Source of the DNA: a virus
Direction: 5' to 3' (one strand)
IMG/VR virus record: IMGVR_UViG_3300044742_000342
Span: 1-58,875 of that record
Length of the DNA stretch: 58,875 nucleotides
Shown here: in pieces, positions 6,320 through 54,772 of the stretch
Layout of the letters: the number at the start of each line of letters is the position of its first letter
Position numbering within the stretch: position 1 is the stretch's first letter
Position numbers and translations under genes: made by a program
The notes under the pieces: model-generated
Seen by the model: only the letters and a program-made list of their open reading frames with translations
What the model was told of the DNA's origin: nothing
The model's database searches: none

Positions 6320-7222
6320 ATGGCTACTGTATCAAAGCCTGCTGTTCCGACCCGTCCTGCTATTGCCAAACCCGCAGTTGCAGCTCCCGCCATTCCCAGG
6401 CCCGCCCCCGCACCTGCGCGGCCAGCCCCTGCCAAACCCGCCCCTGCTCGTTCTGCAGCCCCTCCTGGCCGTCCGGCAGCGGCGCGCACCACGACAGCGG
6501 CCCCACCTGCCGCCAATGGACTGGATGCCCGCCTCACCGCCATGCGAGCTGCATGGGATAAGAACAAGGAGGCTAGTAAGAACCTCAGCAATTTCGGTAT
6601 CAAGGTCGAAGATGGCCCCTACGTAACCAAGCTCACCGGCGCGGACATTAAAGACACGCCTAAGTGGCTCGGTTGTATCTGGCATTTCACGGTTATCGAA
6701 GGGGATCAGACCGGCGAAGTGATTGACGTGTTGGATGACCTCGGCGACGAAGAGCGCATCGTTCACTTCCAGAAAAACCTCCGGCGCATGGGAGTAGAAG
6801 TGGACGACTTCAATCCGGAAGAAGTACCCAGCATTCTCGAGCAACTCATCGAGGCTGCGCCGGCAGTTCGAATCGTCGTGGGCACATCAAGGAAGACAGG
6901 TTCCCGCTGGGCGAACATTGACATGCTCGTGGACACGTCCGAACCGATGGAGCCTACGGAGCCTGCCGCTGCTGAGGAACCCGCAGCTGAAGGAGCTGAG
7001 CCCACTGAACCTACCGAGCCTACTGAACCCACCGAACCCTCGGAAGAGACGGCCGAGCTCAAGCTCGACGATCATGTCAGCTTCCGTATTAGCGGCGTGG
7101 CGAAGATCGGCAAGGTAAAGAAGTTTAACGACGACGGCAGCGTAAACCTCTTCATCAAGGAAGAAGGCAGAGTTGTCAAGTGCGCCGCCGAGGACATCGA
7201 GGCCCTAGCAGAAGTTGGTTGA
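6320..7222 (+). CDS. Probable single-stranded DNA-binding protein with Pro/Ala-rich arm and EPT repeats
   Basis: 300 residues. About 60 N-terminal residues are Ala/Pro/Lys-rich (low complexity). A folded core at about 75-210 (FGIKVEDGPYVTKLTG; IVVGTSRKTGSRWANIDMLV) could be an OB-like fold. An acidic linker then carries tandem EPT units, followed by a small C-terminal domain (VSFRISGVAKIGKVKKFN) that reads SH3/KOW-like. Phage Sak4 genes are often followed by such SSB-like genes, so ssDNA binding is inferred mainly from context. AGGAG precedes ATG 6320. Confidence 0.55.
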   Translation: MATVSKPAVPTRPAIAKPAVAAPAIPRPAPAPARPAPAKPAPARSAAPPGRPAAARTTTAAPPAANGLDARLTAMRAAWDKNKEASKNLSNFGIKVEDGPYVTKLTGADIKDTPKWLGCIWHFTVIEGDQTGEVIDVLDDLGDEERIVHFQKNLRRMGVEVDDFNPEEVPSILEQLIEAAPAVRIVVGTSRKTGSRWANIDMLVDTSEPMEPTEPAAAEEPAAEGAEPTEPTEPTEPTEPSEETAELKLDDHVSFRISGVAKIGKVKKFNDDGSVNLFIKEEGRVVKCAAEDIEALAEVG

Positions 7223-7293
7223 TCTCCAGCAAAGGGGAGACATCCAGGGACCTGTTCTGTAACCAGGACAGGCCTCCTTAAAGGAGATCAACT
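7221..7293 (+). promoter_or_regulatory. Structured leader with sequestered ribosome site
   Basis: GATCTCC (7221-7227) is exactly complementary to GGAGATC (7283-7289), which contains the Shine-Dalgarno of the next gene. Inside are TCTCC...GGAGA and CCTGT...ACAGG stems plus CTCCTT next to AAGGAG. Four GGA triplets occur in the leader, the core of CsrA sites, and this phage encodes a CsrA homologue. A translational switch is plausible; not a riboswitch class I recognise. Confidence 0.45.
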
Positions 7294-11136: not shown

Positions 11137-11189
11137 CTATGCTGATGAAATGAAAGCTGTCGAGCAGCCGATCAGCTAGGAGCTAGGGA

Positions 11190-36176: not shown

Positions 36177-36901
36177 ACATCCTCCGTAATAACAGAGGCT
36201 GCGCCCACAACTAGATTTCCCCCAGAAGTTGCGTCGGCCACAGCCGGAAGGATTCGAACTCCAGCCCGGTACAGTCCCATTTCATCGTAGGTATTCTTCA
36301 GTAGCTTGCTGATTTTGTTGCCGGTGCGATCCTGGTCGGTCCAACCGCGTACATCGTACAAATCAGCGTAGGCAATGATCATTGCCCAGCGTTTCACCCT
36401 CGGCGGAACAACTCCTGCATTGGGTACAAAGCTGAGGGGGATGGAGTACATGCTGCCTCTGAACGACTCCTGAATTTCGCCGTATGCGTAGTCGAAGGCG
36501 TCTTGAACTGCATTCATGTCTGGGTTGGCATTCACATTCTGCTTGTTGGATGCTATGGCAATGTTCTTCAAACCCCATCGCCGAACAAACTCGTCCCAGG
36601 TGAAGTAGATTGACAATGGGATCGCCAGGACTCCGGTGACATTGAATTCACGACTCTGTGTCACCCCTAAGAAAGTCCAGCGGATCCAGTAGGTGTACGC
36701 AAGGGACGACACTGGTTCAACCAGTCCATACTGGTAAATTCCAGGACCGAGGTTAGGTAAAGGAGTACCAGCTGGTACCAGTACTTGATCAGTATCATTT
36801 CGCTTAATGCCAAATGTGTTGACTGGATCAGCGAACACGACTAAGTCGGCATTGATCATCCCGTCGTCATCTGTCTCATGTGTGAAGATAATATCGATCA
36901 T
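36173..36901 (-). CDS. Mu gp36-like (DUF1320) head-tail connector with N-terminal extension
   Basis: 242 residues. The C-terminal half (WDEFVRRWG; VQDAFDYAYGEIQESFRG; VKRWAMIIAYADLYDV) matches the helical fold of Mu gp36-like connectors. The N-terminal 100 residues are a beta domain not usually present. It is separated from the neck genes and read before the terminase, an unusual place. Overlaps the next and previous genes by a few bases. Confidence 0.55.
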   Translation of the reverse strand: MIDIIFTHETDDDGMINADLVVFADPVNTFGIKRNDTDQVLVPAGTPLPNLGPGIYQYGLVEPVSSLAYTYWIRWTFLGVTQSREFNVTGVLAIPLSIYFTWDEFVRRWGLKNIAIASNKQNVNANPDMNAVQDAFDYAYGEIQESFRGSMYSIPLSFVPNAGVVPPRVKRWAMIIAYADLYDVRGWTDQDRTGNKISKLLKNTYDEMGLYRAGVRILPAVADATSGGNLVVGAASVITEDV

Positions 36902-39510
36902 TAGTTAGTTACCCTCACGATCTGGGTTAGATTTCCGCGATCAGTAATAACATTGGTAATTCCCACGTCATTCTTGGATCCTACCCCTGCGCCTTTGACC
37001 GTGATGATTGTTCCGGAGAACACGCCATCGATTGTGATATCGGTTAGCTCCATAGAATAACGTCGAGTTCCGCCAGGCGGAATATATGTGACTGACCCAG
37101 TGAATGTCGCTGGTCCTGTCAGGAGGGAAGCTGACGCGATGAACTGTGGAGTGACTGTAACAACCGATCCGGCAAGCGTTGCGGTTCCCACAACGAAGTC
37201 GCCGAATGCATCGTAGATTGGAGCTGTGAATGTTACCGAGCCGCTGATCTGAACCGCTGAGCCGAGCACATTGACAGAGCCGAGAAACACGCCTGACGCA
37301 AAGATGGCTGATCCTGCAAGCTCAACAATACCGGCAGTTAATGAGCCTGACGCTGTGTAAGTAGGTGCCGTGAAGGCACTGCTTCCAGAGAGTGCCGTGG
37401 CAGCAACGACTAGAGTTCCTACTCCGGTATAGGTAGGTAACGTGAACGAGGCGCTGATAGATGTCGTGGATGCGGCAACAATTAGATTTCCGGAAGCCGC
37501 AAATTCAGGACCTCCAAATGACACCAACCCAGCCAAGCCTGCTGTACCCACCACAAGACTGGCCGACCCTGTATACACGGGCGCTGTAAATGACGCCGAC
37601 CCAGTCAGCTGAGAAACTGGTGCAACAATAGCGGCCTCTGCCACATTGAAGGCCGAGAATGTAGCATTTCCAGAGTAAGTTGCAGCGGCGATTGTCATCG
37701 CCCCTGAAGCCGTATAAACAGGTGATGTGAAAGTAGCAGAACCAGCAAGAACCGTAACCGGCGAGATCAGTGAGGCTGTTCCCGTGTAGCTAGGTGCCGT
37801 AAAGACCGCAGAACCTGATAATGCAACAGGAGACGCCACCAGGCTACCAGAGGCTGTAAACGCGTCGAAAAATGTTCCTGTCACGGTAGTCGTAACCGGT
37901 CCGACCACGAGGGCAGCTGACCCCGTGTATATTGGGGCAGTAAAGGCGGCTGAAGAAGCAAGAACTGTCGGCGATATTAACAAAGCTGCTGACGCTGTGT
38001 AGGTTGGTACAGTGAAGATTGCCGTACCAGCAAGCGATGTCGTACCGGCGAGTAGAGCACCTGAAGCTGTGTAGATCGGCGAAGTAAATACTGCGGTTGA
38101 CGCGGAAGTTGTCGGTGCGATTAACAGACTTGCTGTGCCGGAATAGATCGGAGCCGTGAATGTCGCTGTGGAAGCGGACGTTGCCGGCGCGATCGACAGA
38201 GCGGCCGTCGCGGAATACACCGGCGCGGTGAACGTGGCGGTGCCTGCTGATGTGGCAGGCGCAACCGCAAGTGCTCCACTGGCCGTATAGATCGGCGCGG
38301 TGAATGTTGCTGTCGATTCTGATGTGGCCGGTGCGGCAGCCAGCGCTGCGCTGGCCGTGTAGGTCGGCGCGGTGAACGTCGCGGTGCCGCTGAAGGTTGT
38401 CGGCGCCACCGAAAGCGCGGCCGATGCGACAGTGACGTCCTGGAGTGCGAAGATTCCCCACTCGCCCAGCGTGAATGTTCCCCACTCCGCCAGGGTGAAC
38501 ATCGCCCAGTTCAGCTGCGTGACCAGCTCAGCCGTTCCCGCTGCGGTCGCCGGTCCGATCGATACCGCGATGGCTCCGCTGTAGACCGGCGCGGTGAATG
38601 TCGCTGTCGATTCTGATGTGGCCGGTGCGGCAGCGAGTGCTCCGCTGGCGGTATAGACCGGGGCGGTGAAGGTGCCGGTGAGCGATGACGTGGCCGGTGC
38701 TGCTGATACTGCGCCGGTGGCGCTGTAGGTCGGCACGGTGAACGTTGCCGTAACCGACGTTGTCGCAGGTCCTGTCGAGCTGGCGATCGAGCCGGTGAAC
38801 GGCACCACGCCCTGCACCACCCACTTGCACGCGCCGGTTTCCGCGGCTGAGATCGTCCCGGTCATGCGCAGGGTGGCCGTCGCTCCGGTGGTGACCAACC
38901 GGTGGCCCAGGTCACCGGACATATCATCGCCGGTGGTCGAGCTGAAATGCGTCGCCGGGGATTCGACGTAGTTGCCGTTCCAGGTGATGGCGCCCGCTGA
39001 ATCGTCAATGCCCGACGTCGGCCGGGTCATGGTGGCCGAGTCGTCGCGAATGCCGATGAGCCCGATCACCACACCACCCGAAGGGACTGCAACCGTGCTG
39101 CTGGCCGAGACAGTCTGGCTGCTGGTGGTCCAGTTGGTCATCGCGGCGGTGACCGTCAGCGGCGTGGTCCAGTTGTCGCTCGCCGCCTTCTGCCAGAGCA
39201 TGATGACGGCGTGGCCTTCAGTAGGATTCGCTGACCAATCGATCGTCGGCGCAGTATCCCCCGATTGCCAGTCCCGATACCAGGCCATCACCTTGACCGA
39301 GCCCGTGCCGTTGCCGGTGGCCACGGCGCCGTCGGTGAACTCCGTTCCGATGGGGATCCAGTCGCTGGGGTCGAGGACGGTGACGGAGAAGGTCTTCCAG
39401 GTGGCGAACAGGAACATACGGTCACCGGCAGCCGGTGAGCCGGGAATGGCGACCGTCCCGTCTACGACAAGTCGCGCCCAGGTCCCTGCGGTTTTGAGGC
39501 TGATGGCCAT
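36901..39510 (-). CDS. Giant repeat protein, probable fibre or adhesin
   Basis: 869 residues. The N-terminal 230 residues form a lectin-like beta unit (MAISLKTAGTWARLVVDG). The rest is about 25 tandem units of 23-27 residues built on ATFTAPxYTASGALxxAP. Near 330 a short WxxFTLxEWGxF duplication interrupts the array. Repeats in the first-translated half are near-identical and GC-rich; those near the C-terminus are diverged and AT-richer. Beta-repeat stalks of this sort present receptor-binding domains. No enzyme motif. Confidence 0.6.
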   Translation of the reverse strand: MAISLKTAGTWARLVVDGTVAIPGSPAAGDRMFLFATWKTFSVTVLDPSDWIPIGTEFTDGAVATGNGTGSVKVMAWYRDWQSGDTAPTIDWSANPTEGHAVIMLWQKAASDNWTTPLTVTAAMTNWTTSSQTVSASSTVAVPSGGVVIGLIGIRDDSATMTRPTSGIDDSAGAITWNGNYVESPATHFSSTTGDDMSGDLGHRLVTTGATATLRMTGTISAAETGACKWVVQGVVPFTGSIASSTGPATTSVTATFTVPTYSATGAVSAAPATSSLTGTFTAPVYTASGALAAAPATSESTATFTAPVYSGAIAVSIGPATAAGTAELVTQLNWAMFTLAEWGTFTLGEWGIFALQDVTVASAALSVAPTTFSGTATFTAPTYTASAALAAAPATSESTATFTAPIYTASGALAVAPATSAGTATFTAPVYSATAALSIAPATSASTATFTAPIYSGTASLLIAPTTSASTAVFTSPIYTASGALLAGTTSLAGTAIFTVPTYTASAALLISPTVLASSAAFTAPIYTGSAALVVGPVTTTVTGTFFDAFTASGSLVASPVALSGSAVFTAPSYTGTASLISPVTVLAGSATFTSPVYTASGAMTIAAATYSGNATFSAFNVAEAAIVAPVSQLTGSASFTAPVYTGSASLVVGTAGLAGLVSFGGPEFAASGNLIVAASTTSISASFTLPTYTGVGTLVVAATALSGSSAFTAPTYTASGSLTAGIVELAGSAIFASGVFLGSVNVLGSAVQISGSVTFTAPIYDAFGDFVVGTATLAGSVVTVTPQFIASASLLTGPATFTGSVTYIPPGGTRRYSMELTDITIDGVFSGTIITVKGAGVGSKNDVGITNVITDRGNLTQIVRVTN

Positions 39511-46980: not shown

Positions 46981-47028
46981 CCAAACCCCCCATACCCAAG
47001 AGGGCCGGAAGGCCCGGGAGCTAGAGTT

Positions 47029-47214
47029 ATGGCAGACGACAAGGCTACCGTGTTGGCAAACGCAGCGACCGCCCAGGCGGAGGCGCAAGCCAAGGTCAAC
47101 GAGACCGTGAAAGAGGTCACGTCCGTCCAGAAGAGGCTGGAGAAACGGCAAGGCGCCCTCGCCTTAGCCCAGGCCGCGTACAAGGCCGCCTACGCCGAGG
47201 CGACCAAAAAGTAG
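47029..47214 (+). CDS. Small Ala-rich coiled-coil protein
   Basis: 61 residues, almost one helix (QAEAQAKVNETVKEVTSVQK), no aromatic core except Tyr near the end. GGGAGCTAG is the ribosome site. First gene after the rightward promoter and G-rich leader. Could oligomerise; function unknown. Confidence 0.65.
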   Translation: MADDKATVLANAATAQAEAQAKVNETVKEVTSVQKRLEKRQGALALAQAAYKAAYAEATKK

Positions 47215-47233
47215 GACCAGGCCGGTCCCCGAA

Positions 47234-47259
47234 CCCCCCCTCCCGCAAGGGCGGGGGGG
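47234..47259 (+). promoter_or_regulatory. GC hairpin between small genes
   Basis: C7-T-CCC, loop GCAA, GGG-C-G7: a very stable hairpin 20 bp after the previous stop, without a T-run. It precedes AAGGAGCCTAG and the next start. It may stabilise the message or act as a weak terminator. Confidence 0.5.
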
Positions 47260-47298
47260 CTGGGGTCTGGCCCTCAGAGCCAGCCAAGGAGCCTAGCT

Positions 47299-47439
47299 AT
47301 GTTGAAGATCACAGTTATCGCCGACGTTCAAACGGCGACTCAGATCGACGATCTGAACCTCGCCATCCAGGAAGCTGTCCGCAAGTACGAGGGGTACAAC
47401 CCCAGTGTCCAGATCAGTGTTGAGTCCGAGGAAGATTGA
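47299..47439 (+). CDS. 46-residue protein
   Basis: ATG 47299 after AAGGAGCCTAGCT, ending TGA 47437-47439. Starts with a strand (MLKITVIADV), then a helix (LNLAIQEAVRKYEGY) and a second strand. Layout is similar to that of the next gene, and both are followed by related hairpin leaders, so they may be duplicated cassettes. Confidence 0.6.
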   Translation: MLKITVIADVQTATQIDDLNLAIQEAVRKYEGYNPSVQISVESEED

Positions 47440-47510
47440 CCCTCCGCCAACCTCCCTGTCCTCGCGGGGAGGCTGCGGTCGGCCAATTTCTGGTCGCCAA
47501 AGGAGTTAGC
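47437..47510 (+). promoter_or_regulatory. Hairpin leader repeat, copy 1
   Basis: TGACCCTCCGCCAACC, then CCTCCC...GGGGAGG stem, GGCTGCGGTCGGCCA and CGCCAAAGGAGTTAGC before ATG 47511. It closely resembles the leader at 47691-47765. The long outer pairing CCGCCAACC with GGTCGG and inner stem form one structure ending at the ribosome site. Confidence 0.55.
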
Positions 47511-47693
47511 ATGAGAGAGATCACCATCTACATCAGCCTCACAGTGAACGACGATGAGGTGACGGAGATCCGCAAGTCACTCGAACCGCTCAAACTGGAC
47601 GAGTACTTCCGGAGTCAGGGTGCTCGGTCAGTGGATGTGTGCAACACCTGCATCCAAACTAATGCCGAAGTACTTCCGCCACCCCATGCCTGA
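47511..47693 (+). CDS. 60-residue protein with C-terminal CxxC
   Basis: ATG 47511 with AAAGGAG six bases upstream. Strand-helix layout (REITIYISLTVNDDEVTEIR), then VCNTCIQT with one CxxC. Possibly related to the 46-residue protein before it. Unknown function. Confidence 0.6.
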   Translation: MREITIYISLTVNDDEVTEIRKSLEPLKLDEYFRSQGARSVDVCNTCIQTNAEVLPPPHA

Positions 47694-47765
47694 CCCACCG
47701 CCAACCGCCCTTCCTCGGAGGGGCGGCTGCGGTTGGCCATGTCGGCCACCAAAGGAGCTAGAGCT
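47691..47765 (+). promoter_or_regulatory. Hairpin leader repeat, copy 2
   Basis: TGACCCACCGCCAACC, CCGCCC...GGGGCGG stem, GGCTGCGGTTGGCCA and CCACCAAAGGAGCTAG before ATG 47766. CCGCCAACCGCCC pairs with GGGCGGC..GGTTGG, with compensating differences relative to copy 1 (TCCC/GGGA against GCCC/GGGC), which argues for conserved structure. Confidence 0.55.
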
Positions 47766-48038
47766 ATGGAACGTCAAGATATCCAAGTTGGCGAGGAATA
47801 CCTCGTCCGCGAACCCGAGGTAGGCCTCCGGCGCATCCGTGTCGTGGCGGACCGGGGATTCGGCGGGGAGGTCAAAGTGCACCACAACGGATGGACGGCT
47901 GACGTCACCGGCCCGACCCCGGGACGGACGATGCACATCCGCGCCGCCTGCCACTTTATTCGTTCGATCCCGAACGAATCTGCTCTGCCGACGGACTCTC
48001 TGGAGGAGATGTGCACCACCGACCTGGAGGGCACATGA
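47766..48038 (+). CDS. 90-residue beta-rich protein
   Basis: AAAGGAGCTAGAGCT precedes ATG. MERQDIQVGEEYLVRE and VKVHHNGWTADVTG suggest a small beta-barrel (SH3/Tudor-like), which could bind nucleic acid. Overlaps the next gene by 4 bp. Unknown family. Confidence 0.6.
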   Translation: MERQDIQVGEEYLVREPEVGLRRIRVVADRGFGGEVKVHHNGWTADVTGPTPGRTMHIRAACHFIRSIPNESALPTDSLEEMCTTDLEGT

Positions 48039-48398: not shown

Positions 48399-48445
48399 AT
48401 CGGAACCGCAAGCGGGGCGGAACCCCCGCAAAAAGGAGCTAGGTT

Positions 48446-51984: not shown

Positions 51985-52055
51985 CGTGTCATAGCTGCAA
52001 CTGCAACAATCCTAACAAAGCAAATTACTGCCGCCGCTGTGGAGCCAAAGTATGA
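51980..52055 (+). pseudogene. Zinc-ribbon segment in the -1 frame, without its own start
   Basis: Read in the -1 frame of the membrane peptide the sequence gives NLTCHSCNCNNPNKANYCRR then CGAKV, a typical CxxC...CxxC zinc ribbon. Its TGA (52053-52055) overlaps the next ATG at 52052 in the ATGA form used across this operon. No start codon exists in this frame. Either ribosomes shift at GCC-CCA-ACC, or an indel has split a membrane/zinc-ribbon gene, or the read has an error. Confidence 0.5.
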
Positions 52056-52375
52056 AACATCGCTCAATCACCGTAACCGGCGATTACCAAGGACGACCAA
52101 TCACCCGCAATGCTGAACTGATCATCTGCGATAAATGCGGATGTGAGACATTTGTCATATTCGTTCTCCGAGGGTCACATCAGCATATACAGTGCTCCGC
52201 CTGCCATAACACGTACTGCAACGGCCAATGTGCGTTATTAAGCCCGGAAGAAGCCTTTGCCCCTTCCACCCCACTCGGCCATCTCCAGCCCCCAGCGGCC
52301 CAGCCCCCAGATCGCGCCGCCGAAACCTCTATAACTCATTCTACAGCCCCCCCGCCAGTTCGAAAGGAGAACTGA
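52052..52375 (+). CDS. Zinc-finger-like protein
   Basis: 107 residues. CDKCGCETF and CSACHNTYCNGQC supply paired CxxC knuckles with a beta strand between. The C-terminal 40 residues are Pro-rich and overlie a CCTCTATAAC element, so the true functional part is probably the first 65 residues. Stop overlaps a following ATG. Confidence 0.6.
   Translation: MKHRSITVTGDYQGRPITRNAELIICDKCGCETFVIFVLRGSHQHIQCSACHNTYCNGQCALLSPEEAFAPSTPLGHLQPPAAQPPDRAAETSITHSTAPPPVRKEN
52326..52347 (+). promoter_or_regulatory. CCTCTATAAC element, copy C
   Basis: GAAACCTCTATAACTCATT, matching copies A and B over the core, upstream of the CsrA gene. The TATAAGCGTTT partner is not present at the 53-54 bp position. Confidence 0.45.
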
Positions 52376-52560
52376 TGCAATTTCGCCTCAGCTATGCTCC
52401 CCAGAGAATGGGTTCGTCCCTAACCAAAGGTCCACCATATGCTAGTACTACAACTCAACCATATCGACGATGTCATCTATATCAACATTCCTCCCTCTAC
52501 AGAGCCTCAGCAGGTGTCCATCACCCTTGTTCGCGGCGGTCTTGTGCGCCTTGGCTTTGA
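52375..52560 (+). CDS. Doubtful short frame overlapping csrA
   Basis: ATG 52375 has an excellent ribosome site (GAAAGGAGAACTG), but only the first about 22 residues (MQFRLSYAPQRMGSSLTK) look like protein; the rest overlaps csrA in another frame. The opening resembles the start of the gene at 52684 (MTFYLSYSTKSGG), so it may be a decayed copy that now delivers ribosomes to csrA. Confidence 0.3.
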   Translation: MQFRLSYAPQRMGSSLTKGPPYASTTTQPYRRCHLYQHSSLYRASAGVHHPCSRRSCAPWL

Positions 52561-52687
52561 TGCTCCAAAGCAGATCGCCATCTGCCGCGTCAATGCCATT
52601 GTGAAGGAGCCTCCTCCCCATCGCCTCAATCCCCCCGACAGCTACGTGCCTCGTAGCAGCCACCATAATAGGAAACAACAGCCATGA
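52439..52687 (+). CDS. csrA: CsrA/RsmA-family RNA-binding regulator
   Basis: 82 residues. MLVLQLNHIDDVIYI, VSITLVRGGLVRLGF and DAPKQIAICR match CsrA through its beta strands, including Leu4 and the Arg of the HRE motif; Glu of that motif reads Val. A short Pro-rich tail follows. CsrA dimers bind GGA in leader hairpins and block ribosomes. AAAGG precedes ATG. Likely regulates phage genes with GGA-rich leaders, host messages, or both. Confidence 0.88.
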   Translation: MLVLQLNHIDDVIYINIPPSTEPQQVSITLVRGGLVRLGFDAPKQIAICRVNAIVKEPPPHRLNPPDSYVPRSSHHNRKQQP

Positions 52688-52974
52688 CATTCTACCTCAG
52701 CTATTCCACCAAATCCGGCGGCTGGCAGGGCCTCGTGGCTCTCACGCAAGCTCCCACAGAACAAATCGCCCGCGCCCGCTTCCAAGCAGCCTTCGGCGGC
52801 TTGTGGTTCTTTCGCTTCTCCCTCTCCTCCGACGACGGCTATCTCCAGAGTGCTCTGCATTTTCCTCTACCCGCCCCTGACGATGTGGGCGTAATGGACC
52901 GCCTTCCCCCCGAGCTGATCGAAGCCCTGGCCCGACCCGACCACTCTTCTTCCCCAGAGGAGGGCGTTACCTGA
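52684..52974 (+). CDS. 96-residue protein of unknown function
   Basis: ATG overlaps the csrA stop (ATGA). MTFYLSYSTKSGGWQG, then a helix (QIARARFQAAFGGLWFFRF) and a Pro/Asp-rich tail. No motif. Last gene before the promoter at 53020. Confidence 0.6.
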   Translation: MTFYLSYSTKSGGWQGLVALTQAPTEQIARARFQAAFGGLWFFRFSLSSDDGYLQSALHFPLPAPDDVGVMDRLPPELIEALARPDHSSSPEEGVT

Positions 52975-53821: not shown

Positions 53822-53865
53822 TAAAACCGTACCCGCCGGATTGCGGGAGCTAGGAGTCAAGGACA

Positions 53866-54277: not shown

Positions 54278-54772
54278 ATGACCACAAAGCTGAAGATATA
54301 TAGCGGCGGTCAGCTTGGCGCAGATCAGGCGGGTCTAGAAGCAGCCAAGTTCTGCAATATCCCCACCGGAGGCTACGCACCCAAAGGCTATCTGACACTC
54401 GTCGGCCCACAGGTAGAACTACTCCAGGGCTATGGCCTAGTAGAATGCCAAGTCCCTGGCTATAAGGCTCGTACATGGGAAAATGTCAAGTCCTCGGACG
54501 GTACAGTCCGGTTTGCCTACAACTTCCAATCCCCCGGCGAGAAATGCACTCTCAATGCCATTTCCTACTACCACAAGCCCTACCTCGATATCGACTACCC
54601 ATTCCTCACGCACAAGTACGAGGACCGGATCGAGCAGTTCATTCGCCAACGCCTGGCTCTCGGTCATGCCATAATAAACATCGCCGGTAACCGTCCCGGC
54701 AAAGGAGTCCTCAGAATGTTTCATTACGACGTCCGCGATATGCTTGTCAATGTCTTCAGGAGGTTTATATGA
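54278..54772 (+). CDS. SLOG-type Rossmann protein (putative molybdenum-carrier family)
   Basis: 164 residues. IYSGGQLGADQAGLEAAKFC followed by IPTGGYAPKGY matches the GGQTGxDxxxLxxA...IPxGGxxPKG core of the putative molybdenum-carrier/YpsA-like branch of the SLOG superfamily, and INIAGNRPGKGV matches its last strand. SLOG proteins bind nucleotides or nucleotide-derived signals, and some act in defence or nucleotide metabolism. Why a phage has it is unclear. Overlaps the next gene by ATGA. Confidence 0.75.
   Translation: MTTKLKIYSGGQLGADQAGLEAAKFCNIPTGGYAPKGYLTLVGPQVELLQGYGLVECQVPGYKARTWENVKSSDGTVRFAYNFQSPGEKCTLNAISYYHKPYLDIDYPFLTHKYEDRIEQFIRQRLALGHAIINIAGNRPGKGVLRMFHYDVRDMLVNVFRRFI

Follow-up and report, generated by a model that had tools for sequence, protein, structure and literature searches.

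A divergent phage-borne csrA gene and its putative relation to the host CsrA system

The window is a virus record, analysed over its whole length of 58,875 bases. It encodes a terminase, a head maturation protease, a DNA polymerase, a primase and a helicase, and in addition a small CsrA-like protein. The gene raises the question of which RNAs or proteins a phage CsrA would act on. The initial annotation had proposed a phage-wide post-transcriptional circuit, or a capture of host messages. In such a circuit, CsrA made by the phage would recognise GGA where ribosomes bind the messages of its accessory genes, and would repress their translation or set its timing. The features at the locus are as follows.

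52052..52375, plus strand: gene upstream of csrA for a small protein containing CxxC pairs; a RING-like zinc-binding family was matched weakly and did not reach the cut-off
52375..52560, plus strand: short ORF of 61 amino acids, from sequence and translation
52439..52687, plus strand: CsrA-family gene, 82 amino acids (Pfam PF02599, PHROG 9500, fold matches, residue table, codon-position GC pattern)
52684..52974, plus strand: gene downstream of csrA, ATGA overlap with the csrA stop; no family match

The csrA gene and its protein

The assignment of 52439-52687 to a phage-encoded CsrA was borne out by the translation and by Pfam, PHROG and fold matches. The protein starts with MLVLQLN, contains an IPPSTEPQQ loop and the core VRGGLVRLGFDAPKQIAICR, and ends in a proline-rich tail. 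The Pfam CsrA family (PF02599) was matched with E=2.6e-5 and 24.5 bits, below the gathering cut-off of 27, and PHROG 9500 (CsrA-like regulator) with 4e-4. A sequence comparison with the PDB yielded a best value of 0.12, and 8/8 matches were of the CsrA type. The composition of the frame by codon position (GC pattern) is of the coding type. Judged from its sequence, the gene is a real but divergent phage-borne csrA.

It belongs to an accessory block on the plus strand, at a great distance from the structural genes, which are on the minus strand. This block, located beside replication genes, is fast-evolving. The downstream gene is likely co-translated with csrA via the ATGA overlap. The short ORF 52375-52560 overlaps csrA in another frame, has a Shine-Dalgarno (SD) sequence, AAAGGAG, better than that of csrA, and is coupled to the preceding gene by TGATG; its first residues, MQFRLSY, resemble MTFYLSY of the gene after csrA. 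A leader peptide or a remnant is possible for this ORF.

A residue table was prepared by aligning the window protein with 64 other CsrA sequences, using E. coli CsrA numbering. The beta5 arginine R44, essential for RNA binding and found in 64/64 others, is kept as R50, and L4 is retained. Position 6 is Leu and position 46 is Asn, as opposed to R6 and E46 in 64/64 others, and thus both partners of the R6-E46 salt bridge are gone. Furthermore, R/K7 is replaced by Asn and H43 is absent. The exchanges R6A, L4A, R44A and E46A impair activity, and in RsmE the R6-E46 salt bridge is indispensable (PMC6692469). Given that R44 and L4 are kept and that GGA recognition by CsrA proceeds largely via backbone contacts (PMC6692469), RNA binding by the window protein may survive; on the basis of the residues, standard GGA recognition is doubtful after the loss of R6 and E46.

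Of the CsrA fold, an interlocked dimer with five strands and a C-terminal helix, the AlphaFold model of the protein, of moderate confidence (pLDDT 68), comprised strands 2-4, the three central strands, with no C-terminal helix predicted. The CsrA of the sister phage described below, modelled likewise as a control, has a C-terminal helix (pLDDT 86). The first 15 Foldseek matches with the window model were all CsrA/RsmA/RsmE chains, with weak E-values of 0.05-0.8. The earlier statement that the CsrA strands and the RNA-contacting arginine are kept holds for R44 and L4, but does not extend to the whole RNA-contacting set, as R6, E46 and R/K7 are lost and the C-terminal helix is not predicted.

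Relatives of the phage CsrA

Phage csrA is an already known kind of gene, as 30 csrA-positive phages were reported among 2517 (PMC7366521) and CsrA is encoded at at least 80 IMG/VR loci; no tested function of a phage csrA was reported in the literature searched. With the CsrA/RsmA family (PF02599; phage alleles such as RsmM and those in PMC7366521) the window protein shares the M1-L2-x-L4 start, the predicted strands 2-4, the VRLGF.AP core, R44 and the carriage by phages. It differs from the family in the missing R6, E46 and H43, a long PPSTEPQQ loop, a C-terminal helix that is not predicted, a proline-rich tail and a score below the Pfam gathering cut-off.

The closest phage is IMGVR_UViG_3300037119_004955, with 58,924 bases and a terminase of 57% identity; a circular permutation aside, it and the window are collinear. 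This sister phage encodes a canonical CsrA, scoring 89 bits. The gene has the same strand and lies in the counterpart of the window's accessory region at 46.6-58.8 kb, a block bounded in the sister comparison by matches at 22-23 kb and 33-35 kb. While the two csrA genes are alike in accessory block, strand and collinear phage background, their products share 29% identity, and the sister protein has canonical RNA-contact positions and lacks the PPSTEPQQ loop. The protein encoded at 54278-54772 in the window, a circularly permuted member of the YpsA/SLOG family (Pfam 8e-22), is conserved in the sister phage (48%). A third terminase relative of 97.5 kb likewise carries CsrA; no CsrA was found in 43/45 records searched, many of which are fragments.

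The PPSTEPQQ loop is common to the window CsrA and one other sequence. This relative, 47% identical in residues 1-56 (E 2e-10), is encoded on NZ_CAJATU010000033.1, a contig of a metagenome-assembled genome that was binned as Rhodopila. Both proteins have the loop and VRLGF, whereas the relative retains R6, H43 and E46, reaches 49.1 bits in Pfam and has a longer, different C-terminal part. Between the two genes, 4/8 loop codons and 5/5 VRLGF codons differ, every change being synonymous. Since this contig also bears small overlapping ORFs and a DUF1643 protein, and its CsrA is the only one in that bin, we infer that the contig could be misplaced in the bin or could derive from a phage. With the window protein, neither tblastn in the phage collection nor a single-sequence scan of viral contigs returned a match. 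A profile scan of viral contigs detected just one canonical CsrA, PPSTEPQQ-type scans of viral contigs no further relative, and searches of phages and plasmids only distant csrA matches (E 2e-3 or weaker). The two PPSTEPQQ proteins did not group together in a tree, which was built on few columns with very long branches and a misaligned loop, and was given no weight.

Because only two PPSTEPQQ sequences are known, the window copy may be a useless gene in degeneration, that is, an accessory csrA which has lost its RNA-binding surfaces and is drifting. The absence of R6, E46, H43 and the C-terminal helix is consistent with decay, as are the proline-rich tail, the weak Pfam score and the stronger SD of the overlapping upstream ORF. 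The ORF, however, is intact, has a coding-type codon pattern and overlaps the next gene by ATGA, and loop and core residues were kept although the codons diverge from those of the relative on NZ_CAJATU010000033.1. We regard decay as possible but rather unlikely, and as a serious rival to an action on host CsrA.

Start-associated sequences and leader hairpins

The proposed circuit drew on GGA within the SD of many leaders and on the sequence GGAGCTAG, which was said to recur before at least seven genes. Exact copies are present at five of these.

11179..11186, plus strand: GGAGCTAG, SD of the DNA polymerase gene 11190
47017..47024, plus strand: GGAGCTAG, SD of gene 47029
47754..47761, plus strand: GGAGCTAG, SD of gene 47766
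48435..48442, plus strand: GGAGCTAG, SD of gene 48446
53846..53853, plus strand: GGAGCTAG, 13-20 nt upstream of gene 53866

The other two have one-base variants, GGAGTTAG before 47511 and GGAGCTAA before 53109. In total, the window contains 8 copies of GGAGCTAG against 1.7 expected, five of them at the starts listed; the remaining three lie on the minus strand and were assigned no role. CTAG follows GGAG in 5/50 cases in start zones and in 3/579 elsewhere (p=1e-4), the start-zone and leader counts being approximate as the gene calls came from a simple script. On this sequence evidence, GGAGCTAG is a start-associated, extended Shine-Dalgarno sequence. In the csrA-positive sister phage it is not enriched (1 copy vs 0.9 expected). 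The SAS/ESAS elements of cluster K mycobacteriophages are similar in being repeated, SD-containing sequences just upstream of starts, some with inverted repeats upstream (PMC3203893). The cluster K consensus GGGATAGGAGCCC differs from GGAGCTAG, however, and copies in the window are fewer; only the position is analogous.

Hairpins do exist in the leaders, as the initial annotation stated, and in those of 47029, 48446 and 53866 a hairpin loop close to the SD contains GGA. The frequency of such sites was compared with shuffled sequences of 68 leaders in which the SD was fixed and the flanks were shuffled. The SD GGA was located in a hairpin loop in 4/68 leaders, without excess over the shuffles (4.0). 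When GGA at any position was counted, predicted hairpin loops contained it slightly more often than under this null (12 vs 8.1 +/- 1.7); a second count of any loop GGA was not above another null (25 vs 21.9 leaders). ANGGAN hexaloops occurred at chance genome-wide (12 vs 10.3) and in 1/71 leaders, at a structural gene and in none of the seven named leaders. The csrA leader has no GGA, and a search of Rfam gave no match. One further leader had been singled out for its four GGA.

7221..7293, plus strand: leader with four GGA (7236, 7248, 7266, 7283), predicted fold

The four GGA are indeed present. Such a density, four or more, is reached in about 5% of stretches of 73 nt. According to the predicted fold, 0/4 GGA are in a hairpin loop, all GGA bases being paired save the last base of the GGA at 7248.

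The best-structured leaders belong to a repeated two-hairpin element.

47212..47301, plus strand: two-hairpin leader, copy 1, before gene 47299
47437..47513, plus strand: two-hairpin leader, copy 2, before gene 47511; SD variant GGAGTTAG; loops without GGA
47691..47768, plus strand: two-hairpin leader, copy 3, before gene 47766; loops without GGA

It begins with a long hairpin that is interrupted; another hairpin follows, then an SD of the AAGGAG type on the 3' side of both, and the start codon. Across the three sequences, from which the structure itself was derived, 6/19 pairs have changes at both positions, and pairing holds in 94.7% of cells, compared with 45-59% when the partners are slid. 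These hairpins covary as RNA, while hairpin formation was judged poorly supported for the cluster K SAS (PMC3203893). The three small genes behind the leaders encode proteins which look unrelated, and the element was found only in the window and a contig matching this phage, not outside this phage lineage. As a guess, it might shield the SD from structure further upstream, or serve in processing of the transcript. On account of their hairpins, the leaders at 47437 and 47691 had been considered CsrA targets, which was rejected because GGA is absent from the predicted loops of the element and the SD is located on the 3' side of its hairpins.

The circuit on the phage's own leaders is unsupported by the sequence data and appears improbable. 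The GGA within many SDs, the over-representation of GGAGCTAG at starts, the retained R44 and L4 and the loop GGA of three leaders speak for it. Against these stand CsrA-type sites at chance level, both for SD-GGA in loops and for ANGGAN hexaloops, the sister phage with csrA but without GGAGCTAG enrichment, the csrA leader without GGA, the best-structured leaders without loop GGA, and the loss of R6 and E46.

Two other kinds of repeats were observed in the genome. The dispersed motif YYCCAGARA (longer form TCTTCYCCAGARARTGGCG) is present 41 times, with 4.9 copies expected. It occurs on either strand, within and between genes (for example at 2294, 14863, 32898, 36080, 41787, 44147 and 52399). 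It is also enriched in the sister phage (20 vs 3.6), though not in most other terminase relatives, and could represent dispersed repressor or stoperator-like sites. At 37347-38751, degenerate repeats with a 72-nt spacing lie inside a long minus-strand gene (36901-39510).

A putative action on host CsrA

Alongside the established family relationship, residue losses, counterpart location and lack of CsrA-site enrichment, any activity of the phage CsrA is what we infer. On balance, we consider it fairly probable that the window carries a divergent phage csrA, a rare PPSTEPQQ variant without the R6-E46 pair, which most likely modulates the host CsrA pool rather than binding the named phage leaders. 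The conserved PPSTEPQQ loop, located between strands 2 and 3, would mark this rare variant. With the central strands and the beta5 arginine kept and both R6-E46 partners lost, it may still fold as a CsrA-like subunit whose action, on RNA or on CsrA itself, differs in affinity or in the partners bound. The host CsrA pool could then be modulated by a weak or re-targeted homodimer, or by mixed dimers with pockets lacking the salt bridge. The named leaders would not be bound; they would be extended Shine-Dalgarno, start-associated sequences plus an unrelated repeated two-hairpin leader. The most likely role would be to act on the CsrA system of the host while binding RNA in an altered way.

A stricter anti-CsrA role seems unlikely to us. 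Here the PPSTEPQQ variant, marked in the window also by the concerted loss of the R6-E46 bridge, would mix with host CsrA subunits or occupy a partner; it would de-repress messages of the host during infection and would not bind GGA RNA. A packaged or virion-associated CsrA-like protein has a precedent in gp47 of Burkholderia phage JC1, for which virion association was suggested from one peptide only (PMC9144972), but is highly improbable here, as csrA of JC1 immediately precedes the gene for the major capsid protein and the window csrA is part of the accessory block on the plus strand, remote from the structural genes on the minus strand.

In surveys, csrA is a common phage gene. The window protein, a naturally occurring member, has dropped both halves of a salt bridge regarded as indispensable while its loop is conserved relative to a diverged relative, and would therefore offer a cheap test of whether phage CsrAs bind RNA or interfere with host CsrA.
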